From Anaerolineae bacterium (lineage in GTDB: Bacteria; Chloroflexota; Anaerolineae; Aggregatilineales; Phototrophicaceae): 39,702 bases of DNA. Where the stretch lies: the NCBI GenBank assembly GCA_012270545.1, contig JAAXID010000156.1, forward strand, positions 1-39,702. The letters run 5' to 3'. Below are positions 10,015 to 29,243 of the stretch, in pieces; within the stretch, counting starts at the first letter, position 1, and every line of letters starts with the position of its first letter. Made by a program: the position numbers and the translations under genes. The notes beneath the pieces were generated by a model, which saw only the letters and a program-made list of their open reading frames with translations, was not told the origin of the DNA and searched no databases.

Positions 10015-10353
10015 CTGTTTTCCCCTTGCATGTTCGTCATCAGCGCTCGTTTGTGGCCGATGAATCTGAAATCCATTATCAAATGAATCGGATATTCGAT
10101 GCAACATAACCAAAACTGGATACCATGTCAAATTCTGGTGAATTGCGGGCCGTGGGAGCAGACAAACTAGCCAGACAAGTGGACGAATCTTTGGTAATCC
10201 ATCGATGAAATTTTCATGATTGCTTATGCGCGGTCAAGAATTCCGATGTACCAACTCGCCACGAATGATGTGACCAGGAGTCAGTGGATTTCGCTTTGCA
10301 TGAGTATCCCAAAGACCGTAGCGCCGTTCGCTTTATTGAAGCCCCCCTTCTGT

Positions 10354-10422
10354 GAAGCAAACAGTTCATATTGGTTGCGGATTTGGACAATTTTGCTGTC
10401 ATTATCCCTGTCTGTTTGCTTC
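10354..10422. repeat. Inverted repeat upstream of integrase pseudogene 1
   Basis: GAAGCAAACAG (10354-10364) and its exact reverse complement CTGTTTGCTTC (10412-10422), ending 15 bp before the ATG at 10438. Confidence 0.65.
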
Positions 10423-10437
10423 AGGAAATGTCGTCAG

Positions 10438-11496
10438 ATGTCCGAGTTCCTACCAGATAGTCTTCGAGAATGGATGGGATACTGCCAGCACATGGCGCTC
10501 GACGGTTTTCGCTCGGAAGCAGTGACGCACAAGAATCAGTTCCATCCTGCTCGTTTTTAAGCCTTCTTTGAAGAGCGATACGGGCAAGAGAACATCAGCT
10601 CGTGCGTGAAGCGCGATGCCATAGCTTGGCGCGAACATTTGCGATCTGAAGGACTTGCGGCATCCACGATCAACAATCACATGGCCTCACTCTCGGGATT
10701 TGCAACCTGGGTGCAAGCGCAAGATGCGACCGTGTTCGTGATGGGTGTTCCGACAAAAGGCATTGGCGACCTGCCTCTACCGCCGCTAGAATCTCGCGCG
10801 CTAGACGAAGACCAGGTTCGGTCATTGAAGAATCTATGCGATCGTCTATTCCCATTTTACCGCTTAAAGAATCGCAGGTGGCTGCAATCGGACAGGGAAG
10901 CGCCGCTACAAGCGAGAGCGCGTCCCTGGCGGGACTACGCAATGGTGTTTGTATTGCTGTCGACGGGATTGCGGCGTTAAGAATTGGTACGACTGAATCT
11001 CAGTCAGCTGAGTCCTGCTGGCGCGGAGGAATTGCGTCAGGCTAGACGCGAGCAGATCAATGGCGTGGTAGGGAAGGGGAAGACCCAACGCGACGTATTC
11101 TTGTCGCTGGATGCGCGCCTTGCCTTGGCCGATTATTTGGAGAAAGAGTATGCCGGCGATGTAACGACGGATGTTGCCGAACAAACGCCCGTGTTTCTGT
11201 CCGCGATTGAAGCAGCGCCGCGACGTGTCGATGGCCGCTTATCGCCACGTTCAGTCAATAACATTTTGGCGAAGATCGGAAAGTGGCATGACGCCGGCAT
11301 CAAGGACGAAGCGCGACATATTTCTCCACTGCGTCCACATGATCCGCGCCATACCTTCGCCTTCCAGTTGGCAAAAGTCACCGGGACAGACAGTTACGAA
11401 CTAGAGCATCGATTGGGGCATCAGTCGCAGCAGTACATACAGCGGTACACGAATCCGCCTGAAGATGTCGCAGCATTGTATATCGAAGACTTCTAG
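10438..11496 (+). pseudogene. Tyrosine recombinase/integrase 1, interrupted by two in-frame TAA codons
   Basis: MSEFLPDSLREWMGYC...FHPARF*AFFEERYGQENISSCVKRDAIAWREHL...STGLRR*ELVRLNLSQL...RPHDPRHTFAFQL...LEHRLGHQSQQYIQRYTN. Stops at 10558-10560 and 10978-10980, all in one frame. Confidence 0.85.
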
Positions 11497-11572: not shown

Positions 11573-12500
11573 TCAAAAGGCAATTCGTTCGCGGCGAGTC
11601 TTGGCATCAGAAGGCATAGCATAAAGCATTGTCGTCGAAGCCTTGGCCTGTCCGGCTTGTGCTTGCATGTCATGTAGGAGTGCCCCGTTTTCCAATGCCA
11701 AGGTAATGTGAGTACGCCTAAGATCATGTGCGGACAGGTGATCTATTCCTTTTGCTTGTTTGCGACTCCTAGCAACCGGTAAATGGTGAGAGCGTGCATC
11801 GGAATATCAGCAGCAAATTGAGGATTAGGTCCGGCGGTCAACCTCGGGAAAACGCATTCGTATTGATCCGCTTGCAAAGCGCGTAACGCGACCAGCGATT
11901 GCTTAGTATCGTCAGACACATCCGCGATGGCGACAATTCGCTCCTTATCTCCCTTGCCATGCCGGACACGTACAAGTTGGGCGTCCAAGTCGATATCTTC
12001 CCAGCGGAGCGCGACAACTTCGGAACTGCGGAGCCCAGTGTAGATCAATAGACGCAGCAGGGCATAGTTTCTCACCCCGTAGTGGCGATTATCCTCCGCC
12101 CAAACCTCGAGCAATAGCGCGACTTCAGTTTTGCTCAATGCGCGATGGCTTCGACGTCCGCTGTTTTCCGAGGACATGTGCTTCATTTTGGCAAACTTCA
12201 GCACTCGGCGGCGTTGCGTCCCGTACCATTCACCCCGCGTCTCTGACTCTTCAAGTCAGTCCAGTAGACGAAGTATGTGGGTCTTCTTTGATTGCCGGGT
12301 ACTGTGAGATATCTCGCCTTCGCTTAGGAAGGCATAGATGTTCTCGAAGCTGAGATTGAAGTCGTCGATTCCATTTCTCTTGGCAAATGCCGTCCATTAA
12401 CGATACGTATTCCTGTAGACCTTGCGAGAGGTTTCAGCCAGTGCCTCAGAAATGAGCTCTGGCAGCACAGAAAACTGGTTGTCGGGCGGCTTGGAGTTGA
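11573..12500 (-). pseudogene. Tyrosine recombinase/integrase 2, paralog of the intact gene at 19906
   Basis: Minus frame: NTYR*W (TAA 12397-12399), LRLLD*LEESETRGEWYGTQRRRVLKFAK (TGA 12256-12258), YALLRLLIYTGLRSSEVVALRWEDIDL; then a frameshift near 11745 into GIDHLSAHDLRRTHITLALENG...AFstop. Confidence 0.85.
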
Positions 12501-12506
12501 TGACAG

Positions 12507-15198
12507 TTGACGCGCCATCTGCTGCTGATGACTGCCACGCCACATAATGGCAAGGATGACGACTTTGACCTGTTTATGAAGCTGCTGGATCCGGACCGCT
12601 TTGAAGGACGCGCGCGAGCCGGCGCGCGTCGCAGCGATGTAGACGACTTAATGCGTCGTATGATCAAAGAACGGTTGCTGACCTTTGAAGGCAAGCGGCT
12701 CTTCACGGAGCGCCGGGCGATATCCGTCAACTACGATCTGTCGCCGGAAGAACTCGACCTCTACGAGAGCGTGACCGAGTATGTACGCAATGAGTTCAAT
12801 CGCATTGATGAACTGGAACACGGCGGGCGGAAGAGCGCAATTGGCTTCGCTTTGACAATCTTGCAGCGTCGCTTGGCCTCATCGCCGGCCGCGATCTATC
12901 ATTCGCTTCGTCGCCGACGTGAAAAGCTGGAAACACGTTTGAAAGAGGAAGCGGTACACTCAGAAGTTGTCTTACAGGCAACAGCGCGCAGTTATGACAT
13001 CAATCTCGATGAAGACTTGGAGGATGCGCCGGACAGCGAGGTAGAGGCGATTGAGGCTGAGTTGGTTGACCACGCAACTGCCGCCACGACAGTGGCTCAG
13101 CTCGTTGACGAGATCGAATCGCTACGCCGGCTAGAACGGCAAGCGCGGCAAGTACGGGACAGCGCCATGGACAGCAAGTGGCTTCAGATGCTGAGTTTGC
13201 TGCAAGACACACAGGAGATGAAGAATCCTGATGGCACGGCGCGCAAGCTGGTCATCTTCACCGAGCACCGCGATACGCTGGAATATTTGACTGACAGGCT
13301 AAATACAGTGATCGGCCGACCGGAAGCGGTCGTGACAATCCATGGCGGCACGCGCCGCGATGAGCGGCGTAAAATCGAAGAGGATTTCCGCCACGACGCC
13401 GATGTGCAGATCCTGGTGGCCACCGACCCCGCCGCAGAAGGCATCAACTTGCAGAGCGCCCACCTGATGGTTAATTATGACTTGCCGTGGAATCCAAACC
13501 GGCTGGAGCAGCGCTTCGGGCGCATTCATCGTATCGGGCAAAGACAGGTTTGCCATCTATGGAACCTAGTCGCGGGTGAAACGCGCGAAGGCGCCGTCTA
13601 TCAGCGCCTGTTGGAGAAGTTGGCGAGAGAACGCGATCGGCTAAATGGCCAGGTCTTCGATGTGATCGGAGAGCTATTCCGTCAAACACCGTTGCGCCAA
13701 CTCATGATTAGGCTGTGCGTTACGGCGACAGTCAGGAGGTGCGAGACAGGCTTAAGATTGAAATAGACAATGCCACCGATCAGGAGCGCGTGAAAAAGAT
13801 CGTTCGTGATGACTTACTTGTCACGGGCGTCATGGACACGCGCAAAGTTGAGGAAGTACGCGCCGAGATGGAGCGCGCCCGGGCCCGTAAACTGCAGCCG
13901 CATTTCATTTCAGACTTCTTCCAAAATGCCTTTCAGGAACTGGGTGGCACACTCCATGAACGCGAGACTGGACGATTCGCCATCAACAATGTGCAGCCGT
14001 CATTCGCAATCACGCTATGGAACGCGGGCTGGGGCCTATTGCACGAAGGTACACGCGCATCTGCTTTGACAAAGGCCAGATTTACCAAGATAAGAAGCCG
14101 GAAGCGGCTTTCATCTGCCCGGGGCATTCCCTTCTCGATGCGACCATCAGTCTTATTCTCAAGCGGGAGCGCGAAACTTTGAAACGTGGCGCGATGCTGG
14201 TGGATCCCAATGACCCGAGCGATGCCTTGCGCGTCTTGTTCTACCTGGAAGGAGCCATCCAGGACGCTGTGCCCAGCCGCGGAGCCGAGCAAACGGTCGT
14301 CTCACGCGAGGTGCATTTCGTCGAGATTGATAGCGACGGGAAGATTCACGAGGCCGGTACCGCGCCTTACCTCGACTACCGCCCCGCTGATGAGGAAGAA
14401 AAGGCGAAGATTGCGCCACTGCTGGGGCAGGATTGACTGCAAGGCGAGACGCTGGAGAAGAGGGCCGTGAACCACGCCATCGAACACCTGATGCCCCTAC
14501 ATCTGGAGCGGATTAGGGGGCCGCGAGACGAACGGCTGAACAAGACCGAACGGGCAGTGCAAGAGCGGCTCAGCCAGGCGATCAATCATCATGACGGTCG
14601 CGCAGCCCACTTCCGAGCGCGGGAAGCGACGGGGAAGGTCAATGCGCGGCTCAATCGTATTCAAGAAGAACAGAAGGCGGATGATTTACAGGAACGATTG
14701 GAGGCGCGCCTGGAGCAAATCGCGCAAGAGCGGCTGATTAGCGCAGCGCGTCCGACTGTGAGGGGCGGCGCCTTGATCATCCCCATCGGCGCTCTGCAAG
14801 GCAAAAACATCGACCCGCAGGTGATCGACACGCGCGCGAGTGAAGCGATTGCGATGGCGGCCGTGATGGAGACGGAGCGGGCGCTGGGCAACAAGCCAAA
14901 GGATGTCAGCGACCAGCGCGGCATCGGATACGATATCGAAAGCCAATCCGGCGCTGATGGCAGACTGCGTTTCATCGAGGTCAAGGGTCGGCGCAAAGGC
15001 GCGAGTGATGTGACGCTGACCAAGAATGAGCTGATCACCGCTTTGAATAGCCCCGAGCAATTTATCCTGGCGCTGGTCGAGATAGATGGCGAGCAAGCTA
15101 CGAATGTTCGTTACCTGCAGGGCTACGACTTTAAGGAACCTAAAGCCGCCCAATTCAACTTGAAACAACTGATCGCCGAGAGCTCAGCGCCGCGCTGA
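12507..15198 (+). pseudogene. SNF2-type helicase with C-terminal DUF3883 (DISARM DrmD-like), 5'-truncated and disrupted
   Basis: LLLMTATPHNGKDDDFDLFMKLLDPDRFEG, ATDPAAEGINLQ, QRFGRIHRIGQ; frameshifts near 13709 and 14003, TGA at 14434-14436; C-terminal DUF3883-like RGIGYDIESQSGADGRLRFIEVKGRRKGASDVTLTKNE. Motifs I and II are missing at the 5' end. Confidence 0.85.
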
Positions 15199-15211
15199 TT
15201 GAAGCGACGCG

Positions 15212-15778
15212 TCAGGGTAGGATAAGCCGCAAGGACAGGCGGAAGCCGGGCAGAATATCGCCGCCGCTCAATTCGCCGTCCGAACCAAGGACTTCGCGCT
15301 GTTCCGTCCCCCGCCGCCAGACCTCGGCCGATTGCGACTGCGGGTCGATCAGCCAGACCAGAGCCGACCCGTGACGCAGGTAGGTCTCGGCTTTGCGGCG
15401 GACCTGCGCCCAGGATTGTGAAGGTGAAATGACTTCCACCGCTAAATCGGGCATTTGCGGTACGTAGGTAGTAAGTGCGCGCGTCGTCATGCGCGCCTTG
15501 CCGATGAAGGACACGTCCGGCAACAGTAGGCATTCCTGGTTGCCGGGCGGGCGAAAACCCACTTCGACTCCCACTCGGCCCAAATCGCGCGGAACCACAT
15601 AATTACCTAAGTGCCGCGCTATCTCGCTCGCCACTTCCCCATGCAATTCACTCGGCGCCATCTTGATACATAACTCCCCGTCAATGAGATAGTATTTCTC
15701 TGTCGGATGCCGCGGCTCTTGCTCCAGCCGCCAGACATCATCCACTGTGTATACGCGCTCTTGAGTCGCCATCGTCAT
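15212..15778 (-). CDS. Uma2-family (DUF820) putative endonuclease
   Basis: YLIDGELCIKMAPSELHGEVASEIARHL...LLPDVSFIGKARMT...PDLAVEVISPSQ...KAETYLRHGSALVWLIDP. Confidence 0.88.
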   Translation of the reverse strand: MTMATQERVYTVDDVWRLEQEPRHPTEKYYLIDGELCIKMAPSELHGEVASEIARHLGNYVVPRDLGRVGVEVGFRPPGNQECLLLPDVSFIGKARMTTRALTTYVPQMPDLAVEVISPSQSWAQVRRKAETYLRHGSALVWLIDPQSQSAEVWRRGTEQREVLGSDGELSGGDILPGFRLSLRLILP

Positions 15779-15917
15779 CTCGCCTTCAATTTCTCGCTAC
15801 GAGAACAAGTATAACACGCGGGCGGTAGCCATTCGTACAACCCCCATTTTTGGGGCAGTGCTTCCTGTATGCAGAGCGAGCGCCGCGTTGCCATTTAACG
15901 CAACACTTACTTCAGCG

Positions 15918-18782
15918 ATGGATAAGATAATGCCCGCAGCCAAGAAACTGATCGAAGTCGCCTTGCCCCTCGACGCCATCAACGCCGCCAGCGCGAGAGA
16001 GAAATCCATCCACCATGGCCACCCGTCGACGCTGCATCTCTGGTGGTCGCGCAAGCCGCTTGCTACGACACGAGCGGTTATCTTCGCCTCCCTGGTCGAT
16101 GATCCCGATGACCCGAACGCGCTGCCCGCCTTCGTCGACGCCTGTGGGAAACTGCCGGGCGATGGGCCCAACGTCGGCGCCAAAGGCGATAGTCCGTGCA
16201 TGCGCCTCTTCGATTTCATCGAGCGCCTCGTCACTTGGGAAGCGACCACCGACGAAAAGATCATGGAGCAGGCACGCGAGCTGATTCGCATCGCCACCAA
16301 TGGGAATCCCCCCGCCCTTGCTCGATCCCTTCGCCGGCGTGGGCAGCATCCCGCTGGAAGCCCAGCGCCTCGGCTTGGAAGCGCACGCCAGCGACCTAAA
16401 CCCGGTGGCGGTCATGATCAACAAAGCGATGATCGACATTCCGCCGCGTTTCGCTGATAGGCTGCCGGTCAACCCGCGCGACCGGGTGAGGGGCACGGCG
16501 GGCGACGCGGCCTGGAAAGGCGCCGCCGGACTTGCGGCCGATGTGCGCTATTACGGCGAGTGGATGCGCGAGCGCGCCTTCGAGCGCATTGGGCATCTCT
16601 ATCCTAAGCATAATGGCGAAACGGTAATCGCCTGGCTCTGGGCGCGGACGGTTATCAGTCCCAACCCGGCTGTGAATGCGCCCGTGCCACTGGTGCGCTC
16701 CTTTGTACTGAGCAAGAAGAAGGGACGAGAATGCTGGGCGAAACCAGTCGTTCACGGCAAGACCGTGAGCTTTGAGGTGACGAAGGGTCTGCCACCGCGA
16801 GGTGAAGATGGCACCGTAAAACGAACGGGCGCCAGATGTATTATTTCGGGAGAACCAATTCCCTTCGACTACATCCGCGCCGAAGGCAAAGCCGGCCGAA
16901 TGGGCGCGCAACTGATGGCGATTGTGACCGAAGGAAAACGTGGTCGCAATTACTACAGTCCCGCCCAAGAACACACGCAAATCGCTGAAGTGCAGAACCG
17001 GAATGGGAGCCAGTTGGTGACATTCCGGAGGATGCGCTGGGATTTAGGATTCAATTGTACGGCATTCACAGATTTAGCTCACTCTTTTCACGTCGACAGC
17101 TTAAAGTGTTGACTACGCTGTGCGACGTACTAGTAAATGTAAAACAACAAGTCCAACGTGACGCGATGAGAGCTGGCTTAGCGGACAGTGGCGTACCTTT
17201 ACGTAGCGATGGGAAAGGCATAGATGCTTACGCAGATGCGATTAGCGTTTATCTTGCATTTCTTATCGACAAAGGGGCAGATTTCTGGTCTCGCAACACA
17301 ACCTGGATTCCTAACACAGAGGCAGTCGGTCACACTTTCGTAAGGCACACCTTGTCTATGGTTTGGGACTACACCGAAGCTAACCCATTTTCCACTTCGT
17401 CGGGAAGTCTCGGCAATCTTATCAATGGCCTTTTCAAAGTCTTTGGCATCTTCGGACATGGCTCAGGGCAAGCTAGGCAGGAGAATGCGCTATCAGTTCA
17501 GTGCGACGGCAAGGTCGTATTATCCACAGATCCTCCCTATTACGACAACATTGGTTACGCTGATCTTAGTGACTATTTCTACGTCTGGATCAGAAAAAAT
17601 CTGCGAAGATCATATCCTGACGTTTTCAGTACTGTTTTAGTGCCTAGAGCCGATGAACTGATAGCATCCGCGCGTCGACACGGTGGTAGCGAGGCCGCAA
17701 GAGGACGCTTTGAAAAAGGCATGTTGGCAACATTTACCAACCTTCGTGCGTTTGTAAGGCCCGATTTTCCTATATCTATCTTCTATGCGTTTAAGCAATA
17801 TGACGCAGGTTTTATGGCCTCGGGCCAAGCGCATCCACACAGAGAATTCCAAATTCGGCGAGAGCGATTTCCAGCACAGGTTGGGAGACGATGCTCGCAA
17901 GTCTGATTAAGTCAGGCTTTGAGATTATCGGAACTTGGCCCATGCGAACCGAACGCTCCGCACGTTCACGTGCTTTGGGATCTAACGCCCTCGCCTCATC
18001 GATCGTACTCGTCTGCCGTCCGCGACCCGAAGACGCCCCCGGCCACCTCCCGCCGCTTCCAGGACGAACTCCGCGCCCAGCTCCCCGCCGCCATCGCCGA
18101 GATGCGCACCGGCAAGATCCTGCCGGTCGACCTGGCACAAGCCAGCATCGGACCAGGCATGGCGATCTACTCGCGTTACAGTCGCGTGCTGGAAGCCAAT
18201 GGCGATCCAGTCTCCGTGCGCGCCGCTCTCAGCCTGATCAATAATGTTCTGGCGGAGACACTCTATGAATTCGTCGGCGAGGTCGATGAATACACGCGCT
18301 TCGCCTTCGATTGGTTCCAGCAGCATCAGTTCGAGGCCGGTGACGCCGGCTCAGCGGAGACGCTGACAATGGCAAAGAATACCTCGTTGCCCGGGCTGGA
18401 GCGCGCCGGTCTGATTGAGTTGGGCGGTGGTAAGGTGCGCCTGCTACATTGGCAAGAGTACGATCCAGGCGCCTACGACCCACGGCGCGATGCCCGCCCC
18501 ACCGTCTGGGAAGGCACGCATCACTTGATCGAGCGTCTGAATACACACGGTGAGATCGGCGCGGCTATGTTACTCACCAGGATGTCGCCGGAGTTGGCCG
18601 GCGCGGCTCAAGACCTTGCCTTTAGCCTCTACGATATCTGTGATCGAAATGGCTGGGCGCGGCATGCCCGTGATTACAACGGCTTGATCGCCAGCTGGCA
18701 AGGCAGCGATGGCATCGCCAGCGAGGCGGCGCGTTTGAGGAGCGAGCCGGAACAGGGTGCTCTGCCGATAGACGTGGATTGA
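15918..18782 (+). pseudogene. DUF1156-type DNA (adenine) methyltransferase (DISARM DrmMI-like), multiply frameshifted
   Basis: MDKIMPAAKKLIEVALPLDAINAASAREKSIHHGHPSTLHLWWSRKPLATTRAVIFASLVDDP; LLDPFAGVGSIPLEAQRLG (motif I); DPPYYDNIGYADLSDYFYVWIR (motif IV); [25 protein letters not shown]. Frame changes near 16300, 16995, 17860 and 18035. Confidence 0.85.
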
Positions 18783-21527: not shown

Positions 21528-23714
21528 TCAAAGACGCAAGATACTGTCCACCGCCCCCGGAATATCCAAAAAATCTGCGCTGTAGGCTTCGCGCAGCAGT
21601 TGTACCGGTACGAAACGGTCATATTTGTCGCGCTGGAGGTTGTATTCGCTGACCGGTTTGGCGAGCGCCTCGGCCGTTGGCGGTTCCTGGCATAGACGCC
21701 GCAAGTGCTCCATCAAGTCGGAGGCGGAAGCGCATGATGCCTCCACCACCAGATAGGAGGGCGGATCCTGATCAGGGACGCCGAATCCGCAGTGTCGGAG
21801 CAAGAGGACAAGGGTGGCGAACGGTCGCGTGCCGCACCAGGGGAAGAGAAGGAAGCGATTGTCGGCCAAGGGCAATATAGATGAGGCCGCCAGGTCGACC
21901 CGCTGCGCCGCCCCTCGAGCAATCCCCAGGCGCAGGCGAGCGCGGTCGGTCATGTAAACATAGTCGGAGTCGGATAGCAGGATCTGTCGCATCTTCTGCA
22001 GAATCCGCGTGTGAATCTCGACACCTGGCGAGGTCCACCGGGTCTTGCCCCGGCCTTTCGCCCGCGTCACTTCAACGATACGGCGTTCTGTATCCACACT
22101 CAGCACGCGCCACATGAATCCCGCGAGCACCAGCGTGCTGTCGACATCAGGCGCGTCCGGTATCGTGCCTATCTCACGAGATTTGTCGCGCACGCGGAAC
22201 TCATTCGCAACCATGAAGACCGAATAGAAGCGGTAGTTGTTGACGATGTTTTCCGTCTCCAAGCCGATGATCAGACGGCCAGTTTCCGTTTCTTGCAAGT
22301 GTTCAATATCGAGCAGATAGCGCAGCAGCTGGCGGAATTGCTCTGCCGTGACATCTTTGAATGGCGACAGGGTTAGGACGCGCTCAGCCAGTTGCGCGGG
22401 CGTAAGCTCAGTATGTGAATAGAGGATGCTCAATGTCTGGTGGTAGAGCAAGCTAAAGGGCAGGCGGGGGATCTGGGGCGGTTCGATCCACTTCTCTTCG
22501 GCGTAAAGCTGAATGATGGCGAGGGTTTGCAGCAAGTTCCAGGGCACTTCTTCGCCAAAGTGAGCGGCTTCAGCTTGGTTCTCCGTGGTATAGGAACACA
22601 TCCGCGGCGGAGCTTCACGCCGGCCCGAACGGCCCAGGCGCTGCACAAAGCTGGCGACTGAGTGCGTGGCATTGATCTGTAAGACTTGATCTAGCTGCCC
22701 GAGATCGATGCCGAGTTCCAGGGTGACGGTCGCGGCGACGCAGGCTGATTTGTCTTCCGCTTTCATCGCCGCTTCCGCGCTCTCTCGATAGGGCGTGGAA
22801 ACATTGCCGTGATGCGCATGATAAAAGTTGGGTAGGCTGTCACGCTCAGAGATCCGCCGCATGTTCAGGCTGATCTCTTCCACCTCGCTCCTGCCATTGG
22901 CGAAGATCAGCGTCTTTGGCGACCGCCGCGTCATCTGGTGAATATCCATGAAGTATTGTTCCGTGTCGACCAGCAGCGCATCCAGGTCGCTTGTAGGTCG
23001 TTTGTCTTCGGAAGGCAAGAGAAAATACTTAACAGCGAGTTCAAGCTCGGACTTGCCCGGTCCCATGATCTTCTCCACACCGAGGCTTGAGCGGCCGCGC
23101 AGCCAAGCCATCGCTTTTTCGGGCTCGCCCAAGGTGGCGGACAGTCCGATTCGCCGAGCCGGCGCCGACTGAAAGCGCTCGAGGCGCTCAAGCTGGCACA
23201 TCACTTGCCGGCCGCGATCCGAGTCGATGAAGGCGTGAACTTCATCAATGATGACAAAGCGCAAGTCGCCGAAGAGGCGCCTGAGTTCAAACGTCCGCTG
23301 CATCAACATCGCTTCCAGCGACTCGGGTGTGATTTGCAGGATGCCGCGCGCCCGTTGCAGAAAACGCTGTTTCTTGGATTGGGAAACATCGCCATGCCAG
23401 CTTTGCGCCGGGATATCGCTGTCTTCAAGCAAGCCAGTGATGCGGAAGAACTGGTCATCGATGAGCGCCTTGAGCGGACCGATGTACAGCGCGCCGATAG
23501 AACTCGGCGGGTCGCGGTCGAGCTCCGTGATAACAGGAAGGAGCGCCGCTTCGGTCTTGCCGCTGGCGGTGGCGCTGCAGATCAGGACGTGATTCTGCCC
23601 ATCCAAGATGGCGTCGATGGCTCTCGCTTGAACTTCACGCAGCGTTTCCCATTTATGGCGATAGATGTATTCCTGGATGAAGGGCGCGAGCTTGTAGAAG
23701 GCGTTTTCGCTCAT
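21528..23714 (-). CDS. Lhr-like DEAD/DEAH-box helicase (BrxHI-like)
   Basis: CSATASGKTEAALLPV, IIDEVHAFIDSDRG, LSATLGEP, LELGIDLGQLD, FVQRLGRSGRR motifs; 728 aa. Confidence 0.88.
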   Translation of the reverse strand: MSENAFYKLAPFIQEYIYRHKWETLREVQARAIDAILDGQNHVLICSATASGKTEAALLPVITELDRDPPSSIGALYIGPLKALIDDQFFRITGLLEDSDIPAQSWHGDVSQSKKQRFLQRARGILQITPESLEAMLMQRTFELRRLFGDLRFVIIDEVHAFIDSDRGRQVMCQLERLERFQSAPARRIGLSATLGEPEKAMAWLRGRSSLGVEKIMGPGKSELELAVKYFLLPSEDKRPTSDLDALLVDTEQYFMDIHQMTRRSPKTLIFANGRSEVEEISLNMRRISERDSLPNFYHAHHGNVSTPYRESAEAAMKAEDKSACVAATVTLELGIDLGQLDQVLQINATHSVASFVQRLGRSGRREAPPRMCSYTTENQAEAAHFGEEVPWNLLQTLAIIQLYAEEKWIEPPQIPRLPFSLLYHQTLSILYSHTELTPAQLAERVLTLSPFKDVTAEQFRQLLRYLLDIEHLQETETGRLIIGLETENIVNNYRFYSVFMVANEFRVRDKSREIGTIPDAPDVDSTLVLAGFMWRVLSVDTERRIVEVTRAKGRGKTRWTSPGVEIHTRILQKMRQILLSDSDYVYMTDRARLRLGIARGAAQRVDLAASSILPLADNRFLLFPWCGTRPFATLVLLLRHCGFGVPDQDPPSYLVVEASCASASDLMEHLRRLCQEPPTAEALAKPVSEYNLQRDKYDRFVPVQLLREAYSADFLDIPGAVDSILRL

Positions 23715-25069
23715 CAGATCTGGAAGCTGGCGTAAGGCGACGAGCCATTATCGTCATGGATTTCGGTCGCCGGCGTCAAGGCCTCGGGGTCGGAATAGGG
23801 TTCGCCCGTGGTGAATTGGACCTCGCCCACGAGCGACTCGAAGCTCTCCTCGGGATTTTGCTGCAGCAGGTTTAGCAGAACCACGAAATCCCGCAGCACT
23901 TCACGTGGCGTGAGCAAGGTATCGGCGCCGATACGATGCAAGACAATCGACATAAAGGCTTCGAGATGGCGGTCCTTGATCGCGGCCTCGTACTTGTGGT
24001 GCTTGCTGTGAATCTCGCGAATCGTCTGAAGCAGCAGGAATATCTCGCTGTGGCTGAGGACATCGAGCCGAATCAGGGGGCCCGACATATCGCGCAGCCC
24101 TTGCCGAGCGAAGCGGCTGTCTTCCAGCCGCGTCTTCAGTGCTTCGTATCCGTACAGCCCGCGGCGCTCATCCTCCACCATCTGTGGCGTGGCGCCGAAG
24201 AGCACGCCCAGGTACTCGGCTTTCCCTTGCAGCGTATCATTCAATATGCTGAGCAGGCGTTCGTAATTATTGTTGCGGGATACCTTGTGGGAGATGTGAT
24301 AGAGGCTGACCGCCTCATCGATGAATATGATCAGGCCCTTGTAACCGATTTGGCGCATGAAATAGGCGAGGAGTTTGATGTAGTCATACCAGGTGGTGTC
24401 GTCAATGATGACGCGGACATTCAGCGTCCCTCTGGCCTCCGTCTTAGTATTGAACTCGCCCCGCAGCCAACGAATGGCATTGCTTTTCAGATCGTCGTTG
24501 CCTTCCTGGTGGCCACGCCAGTAGGCATTGATGACAGTGGCGAAGTCAAAGCCATGCACCATGCCTTCCATATCAGAAATGGTCGCGTGAATTCGCGCTT
24601 CCACCTCATTGGCGAAGCTGGGCAACGATGGGCTGGTACCCAATTTCACCACTTCGGATTGGATGTTGTTGATCCACTTCTCAAGCAGCGCGGCGAAGGC
24701 ATTGCCGCCGGGGCGCGTATCGATGGCCATATTATTCAGCAGTTCACGATAGAGCTCGAGCCCTTCGTTTTTCGAGCCGGTCAAGCGCTTCTGCGGACTG
24801 AGATCGGCATCGGCGACGACGAACTTTCGCTTGAAGGCATAATTGCGCAACAGCTGCAGCAGGAAGCTTTTTCCGGTTCCATAGCGGCCGACGATCATGC
24901 GAAAGGTGGCGCCGCCCTCAGCAACAATATCATCCAAGTCGTTGAGCAGCGCACCCAATTCATCTTTCCGCCCGACGGCGATGTGTTCCGCTCCGGTACG
25001 CGGAACAACGCCGGCGCTCAGCGATTGCAAGATAGCCTGCGAAGTACGTTTCGGGATTCGTTTTGCCAT
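23714..25069 (-). CDS. BrxD-like / DUF2791 P-loop ATPase
   Basis: MAKRIPKRTSQAILQSLSAGVVPRTGAEHIAVGRKDELGALLNDL...MIVGRYGTGKSFLLQLLRNYAFKRKFVVADADLSP...GYKGLIIFIDEAVSLYHIS. ATG at 25067-25069; its stop overlaps the helicase start by 1 nt. Confidence 0.87.
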   Translation of the reverse strand: MAKRIPKRTSQAILQSLSAGVVPRTGAEHIAVGRKDELGALLNDLDDIVAEGGATFRMIVGRYGTGKSFLLQLLRNYAFKRKFVVADADLSPQKRLTGSKNEGLELYRELLNNMAIDTRPGGNAFAALLEKWINNIQSEVVKLGTSPSLPSFANEVEARIHATISDMEGMVHGFDFATVINAYWRGHQEGNDDLKSNAIRWLRGEFNTKTEARGTLNVRVIIDDTTWYDYIKLLAYFMRQIGYKGLIIFIDEAVSLYHISHKVSRNNNYERLLSILNDTLQGKAEYLGVLFGATPQMVEDERRGLYGYEALKTRLEDSRFARQGLRDMSGPLIRLDVLSHSEIFLLLQTIREIHSKHHKYEAAIKDRHLEAFMSIVLHRIGADTLLTPREVLRDFVVLLNLLQQNPEESFESLVGEVQFTTGEPYSDPEALTPATEIHDDNGSSPYASFQI

Positions 25070-25118
25070 ACTTGACCTCAACTGTGTATTAGATAAATGT
25101 GCGACGCAGATTACAGAC

Positions 25119-27911
25119 TCATTGCTCAAGATATTCCGGGTGCTGGAGGATGTATTCGACTTCATCGCGATACTCTTCCAGCACGATGCAGAGACCGTCT
25201 TCTTCGATAATCAAGGTATCGCCGATCTCATCCAGCGCGATGCCGTTGATCTCATCGATAATCACGCTGATGAACTCGCCCGGAAACTGGGATTCGATCG
25301 CATTAGCCGGGCATTCCCAGCCATGGGCCATCATCACAGCGATAAGCTCCGCCCGATTGTCGTCGCTGGCCCCTATGATGTGCGCGACTTCAGCCAGGTC
25401 AGTCAAGAGTTCAGCCGGCGTGCCCTCTGGTCTCTGAAGAAAACCCGTTGTGGTGGGCTCGTCGCCGTTGTCTGAGCCCCCACTCACACCGCTCGCGGCA
25501 ATCTGAACTCTTTCGCCGATTGGCGCCCCTTGCTGCTCAGTCTGACCGACGCGGTCTGCAGCGCCGCCGGCAATTGCCGCGAAACGCGAGAGGCGGAGCA
25601 TGGCGCGCGCTTGCCTGCGTCCACCAATCCGGGACCAATCTATTGCGCTAGTCTTTGCCAGCGGCTTGGCAGGGACGTCGATTGGCGTCGGCGATTCTTT
25701 CGGCGCTTCCGGCACCCAGCTTGCCGCCGCTATGAGCTGCTCGTCAACCGATGCTTCCACTGGCTTTGCCTCTTCGCTCACAGGCTCAGCATCCGCAAGC
25801 AGGCGATCGCGAATCGCCTGTGAATCTTTGGCCAGCTGCGCGATTTCGGAATGGTCGATTGACAGCTTCCGCCTTGGCGCTTCCGGCTGCAGCGCGGTTT
25901 CGATGACGGACTTGCTCGCTTCTGTCAACTGGATGCCGCGAACCCGATATCTGTATCCCGCTTGTCCGCGCAGGACATTGTCGGCATGCTTGATGATGCT
26001 GTTCAGAGCCGAAGACAGCGGTTCGACCTCCGTCCAGGCATAAGTCGCGGCGATTTCTATTTCCGTTCCTATATAATCATGTACCGCGCTGGCAAAGGGC
26101 GCCCGGCGGATGACTTGCCGGCGCTCCGGTTGATGCATCTGAAAAAGCGTCTTACCCCGTTCTTTTCGTGCCGCTTCATCAATGGCAATCAAGGCTGTCT
26201 TATACCCCTGATGCAGGTCGGTCGATTCAGAGAACTTCTTGTAGAATTTGCTCTTCGTCGGATTGTATTTCGCCAGCGCAAAGAGGATGCTGACCGGCAA
26301 GGCCTCGAATGAGTCGCCTGAATTCACCCAGGTTTCAAGGGCAAAGTTCAGATCCGTGATGTCAGCTACCTTGCTAACTTCGCTGTACCAGTCCAGCGCG
26401 TTCGGCGCCAATTTATGGAGGACGATGAAGTCGGCAATCCAATCCGGCAGATAGCGATCCAGCTTTGGCTGCAACTGCCGATAGTAGCGCCAGAATTCAT
26501 CAAGGTGCTCGAAGGCTTCATCCGGGGATTCGAAGCCGATCAAGTTGATAACTTCATAGATATGGACGAAGAGATAGCTCAAGTCGGTCGGCAGCCAGTT
26601 GCCCAGGCGCAGCTGAGTGCGCCAATAGAAGTACCAGCGCTGTTGCGCAGCACTCATAGACTCGTAAGTGGGCCAATGCTGCATGAAAGGGACCGGCTCG
26701 GCTCGGGTTTCGGTCCGATCCACAAGCGCTTTCGCCTGCTCAACGAAGTGAGTTTCATTTCGTGAGAAAGAAGCTCTAAAGCTGTCGTTTTGGGTACGAG
26801 CGGGGATGGGAGTGTCTTTCGGCACATCCTCCGGGACCGGCATGCTCACGCGGTGATATATTTCCTCAGCGCGGCGCGGCTCATGTTCTACGGTCACGGT
26901 CTGTGATAGAGACGGCGGCGTCTTGGTATCGCCAACGACTTCCAGCGGGTCGACCGCGACCAAGTCCTCCGGTTTGCGTGAAATGCGACCGTTCAGGTGT
27001 TTCAGGCACTCCAGCGGGTCGATCAGTTCCAGGTTCAGGTCGAGAAACTGATGTCTTGTCGTGCTGACGCTAATCAGGCAGAAACGACCGGGTTTGCCGG
27101 TGCCAGGATGTACCTTGTCGACGAAGCCGCTGAAGATGATGGTGTCGATTTTCTCAGTTCTGTCGGCGCTGTAGATCTCGTGAAGTGTTCGCAGCGGTAT
27201 CTGCGCGAGGACCGATGCATACAGTTGTTTGCGCTGTGACTGGGGCAGGGCGGTCTGCGTGATTTCATCGCGCGCCTTGACATAGCGATATGCCTTGGCA
27301 TCCGGCACCGCTTCATAGCTTGGCAAATCGTGCTCGATACTTAGCTGCCGCGAGTTCGCTGTGTAGACGAGTTGCGACTTCTGGGGAAAGGGCTCCGGAT
27401 AACTGCCATTCTGCAGAACACGCACGAAATAGTCTTCTACCGCTTTTGACTCGCCAGCGGAAAAGCGCTCCTGAATGCGCGCGATCTTCTGATTCTGTTC
27501 GAAGGCGTTGTTGCGCCGCACATTCATGCGTATCTCATGGTCTGACTTGGCCCGCTGATACTCCCTTTCCGCTCGCTCGTATCGCTTGTCGCCTTCTGAA
27601 TACAGCTGCTCATATTCGCGCTTCTTCCAGGGCAACATCTTGTTCAAGCCAGCAGGCGGCGCCGGTACATAATCGCCTCGCCTGGGTTTCTCTTTCTTGA
27701 AGGGCTCGATACGTGGTGTTGTTTTTAGCTTGTCCAGATCGATATAGCTATCCCGAGACAGTGCATCTTTGAGGATATTCTGCAGCTTGGCGAATGTAGC
27801 TTCCAGTTCGGTATTTCGAGCATCCGACTGAGATCGTCGTTGCTGCTGCCTATATGCGTTTGAACGTGTTCTTTGAGACAAGATAGTTTCCTTAATGGGG
27901 ACCTGTATCAA
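25119..27911 (-). CDS. TerB_N/TerB_C domain protein with an Mrr-associated N-terminal domain
   Basis: N-term LQNILKDALSRDSYIDLDKLKTTPRIEPFKKEKP...YEAVPDAKAYRYVKARDEITQT...LYASVLAQIPLRTLHEIYSADRTEKIDTIIFSGFVDKV; middle YFYWRTQLRLGNWLPTDLSYLFVHIYEVINLIGFESPDEAFEHLDEFWRYYRQLQPKLDRYLPDWIADFIVLHKL (TerB_N-like); C-term LSIDHSEIAQLAKDSQAIRDRLL (TerB_C-like). Start probably TTG. Confidence 0.78.
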   Translation of the reverse strand: MIQVPIKETILSQRTRSNAYRQQQRRSQSDARNTELEATFAKLQNILKDALSRDSYIDLDKLKTTPRIEPFKKEKPRRGDYVPAPPAGLNKMLPWKKREYEQLYSEGDKRYERAEREYQRAKSDHEIRMNVRRNNAFEQNQKIARIQERFSAGESKAVEDYFVRVLQNGSYPEPFPQKSQLVYTANSRQLSIEHDLPSYEAVPDAKAYRYVKARDEITQTALPQSQRKQLYASVLAQIPLRTLHEIYSADRTEKIDTIIFSGFVDKVHPGTGKPGRFCLISVSTTRHQFLDLNLELIDPLECLKHLNGRISRKPEDLVAVDPLEVVGDTKTPPSLSQTVTVEHEPRRAEEIYHRVSMPVPEDVPKDTPIPARTQNDSFRASFSRNETHFVEQAKALVDRTETRAEPVPFMQHWPTYESMSAAQQRWYFYWRTQLRLGNWLPTDLSYLFVHIYEVINLIGFESPDEAFEHLDEFWRYYRQLQPKLDRYLPDWIADFIVLHKLAPNALDWYSEVSKVADITDLNFALETWVNSGDSFEALPVSILFALAKYNPTKSKFYKKFSESTDLHQGYKTALIAIDEAARKERGKTLFQMHQPERRQVIRRAPFASAVHDYIGTEIEIAATYAWTEVEPLSSALNSIIKHADNVLRGQAGYRYRVRGIQLTEASKSVIETALQPEAPRRKLSIDHSEIAQLAKDSQAIRDRLLADAEPVSEEAKPVEASVDEQLIAAASWVPEAPKESPTPIDVPAKPLAKTSAIDWSRIGGRRQARAMLRLSRFAAIAGGAADRVGQTEQQGAPIGERVQIAASGVSGGSDNGDEPTTTGFLQRPEGTPAELLTDLAEVAHIIGASDDNRAELIAVMMAHGWECPANAIESQFPGEFISVIIDEINGIALDEIGDTLIIEEDGLCIVLEEYRDEVEYILQHPEYLEQ

Positions 27912-28104
27912 ATCAACCGACCCAATATACCTTAGTTGCCTTTATTTATGTAATTGTATTTCCTATGTCTCTGGCATTCTTAGAGCTGGCGGATGTTTTC
28001 AGTATCCTCTTGCCTGCAATGACCGTGTTATGTTCAAGCGCAGATTTGGGGCTGGAGCATCCTGTCATGCGCTAAAGGACATGAATTCGTGTATCGTCGT
28101 CATA

Positions 28105-28144: not shown

Positions 28145-28573
28145 ATGCCCGCCAAAGATCGCTATCACGATACCGTTGTTCGCTGCTTGATCAGGGCAGG
28201 GTGGTCTATTATCAAAGAACAGTACACCGTTGTCGTGGCCGAAAGCGATCACGATTTCCGAAGGCTGTTCATCGACATCGCGGCGCAGTCACAGACTGAG
28301 CGGATTGCGTTGATCGAGGTCAAGTCGCTTGAGCCTTCAGCAATGCATGCGTTTATGGAGCTCGTGGGGCAATATTTGGTTTATCGGACGGCACTGGACT
28401 ATATTGGTGATACGACACCATTGTACGTTGCCATAACCGAAGCGGATTATGAAATCATGATTGAACAACCGCTGGGTCAAAGGGTCATCGGTGACCGGCT
28501 CACGGAGCCGATTCCCTTCCTCGTATTTGACCCGATTGTCGAGGAGATTGTGAGATGGATACCGGAACCATAA
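28145..28573 (+). CDS. xisH: XisH-like (fdxN element excision controlling factor) protein
   Basis: MPAKDRYHDTVVRCLIRAGWSIIKEQYTV...IALIEVKSL...MHAFMELVGQYLVYRTAL...TPLYVAITEADYE; PD-(D/E)XK-like EVK. Confidence 0.92.
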   Translation: MPAKDRYHDTVVRCLIRAGWSIIKEQYTVVVAESDHDFRRLFIDIAAQSQTERIALIEVKSLEPSAMHAFMELVGQYLVYRTALDYIGDTTPLYVAITEADYEIMIEQPLGQRVIGDRLTEPIPFLVFDPIVEEIVRWIPEP

Positions 28574-28857
28574 AGAATATCTTGCTGGAAGAACTAGAAG
28601 GCTATACGGGCGAGGGTTTGAACGACTTTGCCTATCTGACAGCCAACGAAGCCGAGCAGCTTTATACGATCGTAGACATTGCCAAGGTGCGAGAGAAGCG
28701 CCTTGTCGGCACGGTGCTGGTTGCGCGTCTGGCGGGCGACCAGGTGGTCATTGAACTGGATCGACATGACAAGCTGCTCGTTGATGCGTTGAAGGCGCGC
28801 GGCGTGCCGGAGTCTCAGATCGTCTTGGCCTATCGCGGAGATGCGCTCCCCGCCTAA
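28555..28857 (+). CDS. xisI: XisI-like protein
   Basis: Overlaps the XisH 3' end; LARLAGDQVVIELDRHDKLLVDALKARGVPESQIVLAYRG typical of XisI. Confidence 0.92.
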   Translation: MDTGTIKNILLEELEGYTGEGLNDFAYLTANEAEQLYTIVDIAKVREKRLVGTVLVARLAGDQVVIELDRHDKLLVDALKARGVPESQIVLAYRGDALPA

Positions 28858-29243
28858 ATGCCATGACGCTTAAAGCAACGATGCAGGCTGGCGCGGGTCA
28901 AATGCGGGATCCTCTCCTGCAGGGCGTAGAGGCAGTCATCAAGCGACAGCAGGGTCTTGCGGCGAAAGGCAACGAGCATGGCTTCCTCTTGCGCGCTGAG
29001 GATGGTCGAGCGCGGCTGTTTGGGCCCCCATCGGCAAGTCCTTGACGGAATCGCGCTTCTTCCATTTAGCGACCGTCTTTGGGTTGATGCCATAGCGCTT
29101 GGCCAGCTTGGCTATGCTCTCTTGACTATTTTGTATCTCTTGGCGGGTCGCCTCTGTCGTTGTGGCCCGAGGGTGTAGAACCTGTCCAATAATGCTTCCT
29201 TTTGGCAGTTCGATATCACACCATGATAACCTGATACGTTACA
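28858..29243 (-). mobile_element. IS481-family insertion sequence copy 2, truncated (left end and N-terminal transposase only)
   Basis: Shares the 42-bp terminus and the IAKLAKRYGINPKTVAKWKKRDSVKD segment with copy 1; homology stops at CATGGCAT just beyond the XisI stop codon; extra G at the GATGGGGGCCC run shifts the frame. Confidence 0.8.

Follow-up and report, generated by a model that had tools for sequence, protein, structure and literature searches.

Three consecutive, uninterrupted minus-strand reading frames occupy positions 21528-27911 of the 39,702-nucleotide stretch of DNA that we analyzed (hereafter the window), and they raised the question of whether they make up an uncharacterized defense system, as the original prediction had proposed, an accessory part of BREX, or a system that is already known. 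The genes, named here after the system to which we assign them below, lie in the order sngA-sngB-sngC, and the features of the operon, starting from its 5′ end, are as follows:

27882..27971, minus strand: conserved operon leader, presumed to hold the promoter and ribosome-binding site (defined by the limit of a blastn match and the aligned leader)
25119..27881, minus strand: sngA, a TerB_N/TerB_C scaffold with an Mrr-enzyme-like N-terminal module (PADLOC SngA, 240 bits)
26943..27875, minus strand: Mrr-enzyme-like N-terminal module of SngA (mREase_IV model, 3e-44)
26238..26777, minus strand: TerB_N domain of SngA (PF13208, 120.7 bits)
25155..25274, minus strand: TerB_C end of SngA (PF15615, 32.8 bits; best stretch residues 880-919)
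23714..25069, minus strand: sngB, an AAA+ ATPase of the BrxC/BrxD family (PADLOC SngB, 598 bits)
21528..23714, minus strand: sngC, an SF2 helicase with an Lhr-like core, 728 aa (PADLOC SngC, 780 bits)

The three frames (930, 483 and 728 aa) were confirmed to be intact. The sngA frame is open over 25119-27911, and comparison with a second species (G720) pointed to a conserved TTG at 27881 as the likely start of a 920-aa protein; for sngB, which is open over 23714-25165, alignment with relatives, including the second species, placed the likely start at 25069 (451 aa). The sngC and sngB frames share a single base (23714), where the former begins and the latter ends, and DNA similarity with the second species extends in the 5′ direction no further than the leader. 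The predicted TerB, DUF2791/BrxD-like and Lhr-like domains passed an HMM check, all scoring above Pfam cut-offs (SngB matched BrxC_BrxD, PF10923, the former DUF2791, at 528.6 bits, and SngC matched DEAD and Helicase_C). Both predicted Walker A motifs were found as well, within intact ATP-site motifs in SngB (GRYGTGKS, together with IIFIDE) and intact motor motifs in SngC (SATASGKT, together with a DEVH box and QRLGRSGR). The best solved relatives of SngC were 5v9x and 7lhl, which are annotated as ATP-dependent DNA helicases and which we take to be mycobacterial Lhr. Pfam and PADLOC profile searches of the three proteins detected no nuclease domain in the operon, and a hidden nuclease domain may have escaped such searches.

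From profile matches and gene order, we identified the three genes as a complete Shango operon, a known anti-phage system, in a Chloroflexota genome. Shango is known from E. coli and P. aeruginosa as three genes encoding a TerB-like protein, an ATPase and a helicase, and in PAO1 the PA14 system lowered the plating of many phages 10-100-fold (PMC10250203), so the cassette is not the uncharacterized system it had been taken for. The operon in the window encodes the same three kinds of protein in the same order, and the PADLOC Shango models (PDLC03958-PDLC03960) matched all of them, at 240 bits for SngA (over residues 374-922), 598 bits for SngB and 780 bits for SngC. It departs from the described systems in SngA, in which ~345 additional residues at the front make up an Mrr-enzyme-like module and a middle TerB domain (PF05099) could not be detected. 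The three-gene synteny is conserved elsewhere, as expected: nearly all of the best 80 SngB loci in GTDB genomes, from many phyla, had the same gene order, with a TerB protein in front as the rule among these relatives.

The ATPase and helicase had also been tied to type 2 BREX, in which BrxD, an ORC/Cdc6-like ATPase, forms a linked pair with the BrxHI helicase and is its proposed loader (PMC12839542). Read this way, the operon would be a detached BrxD-BrxHI accessory module or a leftover BREX operon, and the superfamilies are indeed shared, since PF10923 spans BrxC and BrxD and the helicase reached the BrxHI model at 458 bits. The Shango models nevertheless outscored their BREX counterparts by hundreds of bits (598 for SngB versus 174 for BrxD, and 780 for SngC versus 458 for BrxHI), the NCBI BrxD equivalog matched SngB at 177.5 bits, about half its cut-off of 350, and a leading TerB protein is usual among the relatives. 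PglZ gave no match anywhere in the assembly (290 contigs, 91% complete), which argues that the operon is not BREX and agrees with its having been called stand-alone; the pglX/pglZ neighborhood that would have spoken against such a system was accordingly not seen. We therefore regard a BREX origin as extremely improbable. PbeABCD was likewise rejected as an identity, since PbeA fuses an HKD nuclease to a helicase and PbeC is an ABC ATPase of the CxC type (PMC10853773).

The description of the first protein as a TerB-domain scaffold was correct for its TerB part and overlooked the N-terminal ~345 residues. Profile and alignment evidence identifies SngA as a chimera, in which this stretch is a homolog of the N-terminal half of Mrr-type restriction endonucleases, the half without catalytic function. 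Residues 13-323 matched the PADLOC model mREase_IV (PDLC03663) at 3e-44, and the module was 27-38% identical, over the shared part, to its aligned homologs (L045-L050 and L131-L140). The matching plasmid proteins were mostly annotated as restriction endonucleases, and all four of the annotated enzymes that we scanned (L045-L048) had an Mrr_cat nuclease behind the module region. What SngA shares with these type IV enzymes is an N-terminal region made up of a coiled coil and an alpha/beta domain; unlike them, it showed no Mrr_cat in Pfam searches, and TerB_N/TerB_C stand in place of the nuclease. An AlphaFold model of SngA displayed long coiled-coil-like helices, an alpha/beta domain, a disordered linker and the TerB part, with pLDDT mostly 80-95 across the module. 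Neither the whole model nor the module matched a PDB fold below E 0.001, and the best viral fold match, an uncharacterized siphovirus protein (E 1.3e-3), was too weak to use. Full-length SngA had no relative in the viral contigs or phages searched, no plasmid record covered both of its halves, and the module had no detectable relationship (hhalign probability 0.1) with either the long front end seen in other SngA proteins or the TerB part.

The module occurs in three arrangements: fused to Mrr_cat, standing alone beside a DUF4041/T5orf172 gene, and fused to SngA. A Streptomyces plasmid protein (L048, 1958-4039) combines the module and the Mrr_cat nuclease with a TerD domain. The stand-alone module forms a conserved gene pair with a DUF4041/T5orf172 nuclease in Kocuria and in two Chloroflexota:

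L050, 2761-5381: module and DUF4041/T5orf172 pair
L141, 2470-5249: module and DUF4041/T5orf172 pair
L142, 4795-7696: module and DUF4041/T5orf172 pair

These pairs are possibly a two-gene variant of SNIPE, a system in which DUF4041 occurs together with a GIY-YIG nuclease; SNIPE cleaves phage DNA while it is being injected, and its variable N-termini have been proposed to act as adapters (PMC13190303). The operon in the window resembles SNIPE in that homologs of the SngA module adjoin DUF4041/T5orf172 genes and in that N-termini vary in both, and it differs in having neither DUF4041 nor a GIY-YIG-type domain. Association of one module with three unrelated effectors would be expected of a detector or targeting part, and this distribution suggests to us that the module may be an exchangeable sensor or targeting part. 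A broader proposal, that SngA is a general adaptor whose constant TerB part links the SngB/SngC motor to an exchangeable detector, here a borrowed one common to an Mrr nuclease, a SNIPE-like nuclease and the Shango motor, is conceivable, and we put it forward tentatively.

An assembly chimera could be rejected as the source of the fusion, since a search of 396 genomes of the class recovered the full-length fusion in one further species of the genus (G720). SngA of this species was 80% identical over 921 positions, SngB 92% and SngC 89%. Between the two species, dN/dS (Nei-Gojobori) was 0.26 for SngA, 0.09 for SngB and 0.12 for SngC, and within SngA it was 0.23 for the borrowed module and 0.30 for the TerB part; the low values throughout indicate that all three genes, and every part of SngA, are under purifying selection. 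When the window was compared by blastn with 19 kb around the G720 copy (L165), a single match was obtained (21532-27971, 86%), so that the shared DNA consists of the three genes and their ~90-nt leader only. The G720 flanks are unrelated and hold thiolase, ChsH2 and SDR genes at one end and a sugar-type transporter at the other. This cassette-only similarity between unrelated flanks indicates that the operon moved as a discrete unit, and a recent arrival would account for its intact state next to the remains of an Hma system.

The mode of spread also bears on what the operon is for. Lhr helicases have established ties to DNA repair, and the Lhr-like core of SngC would suit an operon that serves repair, or that blocks plasmids, rather than one directed at phages. 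The distribution fits defense better: presence is patchy, with strong SngB matches in ~10 of 400 genomes of the phylum, and DNA similarity confined to the cassette between species is less expected of a housekeeping function. Since P. aeruginosa Shango also reduces phage plating (PMC10250203), we consider a role in repair or plasmid blocking instead of phage defense quite improbable; plasmid blocking may occur in addition to it.

Among congeners and members of the order, the SngA front ends were unrelated although SngB and SngC were 54-61% identical. Three congeners (G698, G677 and G563) had Shango with SngB and SngC 57-61% identical to the window copy, and their SngA proteins were 388-469 residues long, beginning in a coiled-coil-like segment and ending in a TerB_C-like one. 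In G689, of the same order, SngA had 1210 residues and a different front end of ~600 residues. When 84 SngA proteins were sorted by class, 55 had no recognized extra front end, 17 had a shared long one, seven had a predicted membrane segment (in one case a TM2 domain), three were short forms and two carried the Mrr-type module. Mapped on a tree of 98 SngB sequences, the front-end states required at least 15 changes (minimum 4; shuffled mean 27), a count taken from a quick tree and coarse classes, with strongly supported branches forcing fewer than 15. Repeated exchange of SngA front ends, as it appears from these comparisons, is firmer than the count itself, and the pattern suggests that the front end is an exchangeable part of Shango. 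The Mrr-like version, seen in just two species belonging to a single genus, could be a local oddity.

The shared N-terminal region of ~600 residues occurs in several phyla (genes in L053, L069, L075, L083, L089, L093, L099, L110 and L167-L169) and is essentially unrecognized by Pfam. One weak Pfam hit (E 0.028) and the reading of one sequence hint that it is perhaps an inactive SNF2-like fold.

Exchangeability need not mean that the front end chooses a target. Shango could be genuine here and the front end a passive structural or oligomerization part, mainly coiled coil: the long helices of the module are modeled as coiled coil, and the short SngA forms of the congeners also start with a coiled coil, where dimerization may suffice. 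The alpha/beta half of the module is likewise conserved and under purifying selection, though, and the module accompanies two other kinds of defense nuclease, so we judge a passive role unlikely. The explanation that we favor, and consider probable, is a Shango operon in which an Mrr-derived SngA front end acts as an exchangeable trigger or location part, combined with a constant TerB adaptor and helicase-based restriction. The TerB_N/TerB_C part of SngA would be the constant adaptor that docks the SngB/SngC core; SngB, as kin of ORC/Cdc6-like BrxD, would load the SngC helicase on DNA or switch it on there; and the exchangeable front end would set either the trigger of the complex or its place. 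The front end in the window would probably use the same target or location as Mrr-type enzymes. Restriction would most likely be achieved by helicase action on phage DNA, which we favor over cleavage because the operon showed no nuclease domain in the profile searches.

The system itself is known, and what is new here is a naturally occurring chimeric SngA together with a pattern of front ends that can be exchanged; in openly licensed PubMed Central papers we found no description of either, nor of a trigger or mechanism for Shango. Front-end variants of SngA that accompany similar SngB and SngC proteins point to a possible seat of target choice, and these natural variants amount to ready-made domain-swap experiments. 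A module common to Mrr-type enzymes and SNIPE-like operons would link three defense systems that are usually treated apart and, if the proposal is true, would mean that one sensing principle is reused across defense systems.

The operon lies in an island with other defense and mobility genes. The decayed neighbors that had been described as DISARM-like are a remnant of an Hma system at 12504-18782 (plus strand), in which HmaA and HmaB are each broken over several frames, HmaA lacks about the first 258 model positions and no HmaC was seen. Between HmaA and HmaB lies an open frame for a Uma2-like gene (PADLOC PDC-S03; 15212-15778, minus strand). The view that the cassette alone is undamaged was too strong, as this gene, a tyrosine recombinase just downstream of sngC (PF00589; 19906-20877, plus strand) and an XisH/XisI pair are open as well. 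Sequence that resembles two broken tyrosine recombinases lies further to the left (10198-11496, plus strand, and 11743-12255, minus strand). On the upstream side of the operon, the XisH/XisI pair (28145-28857, plus strand) is followed by an apparent transposase remnant at ~28860-29220 (minus strand), read by eye.
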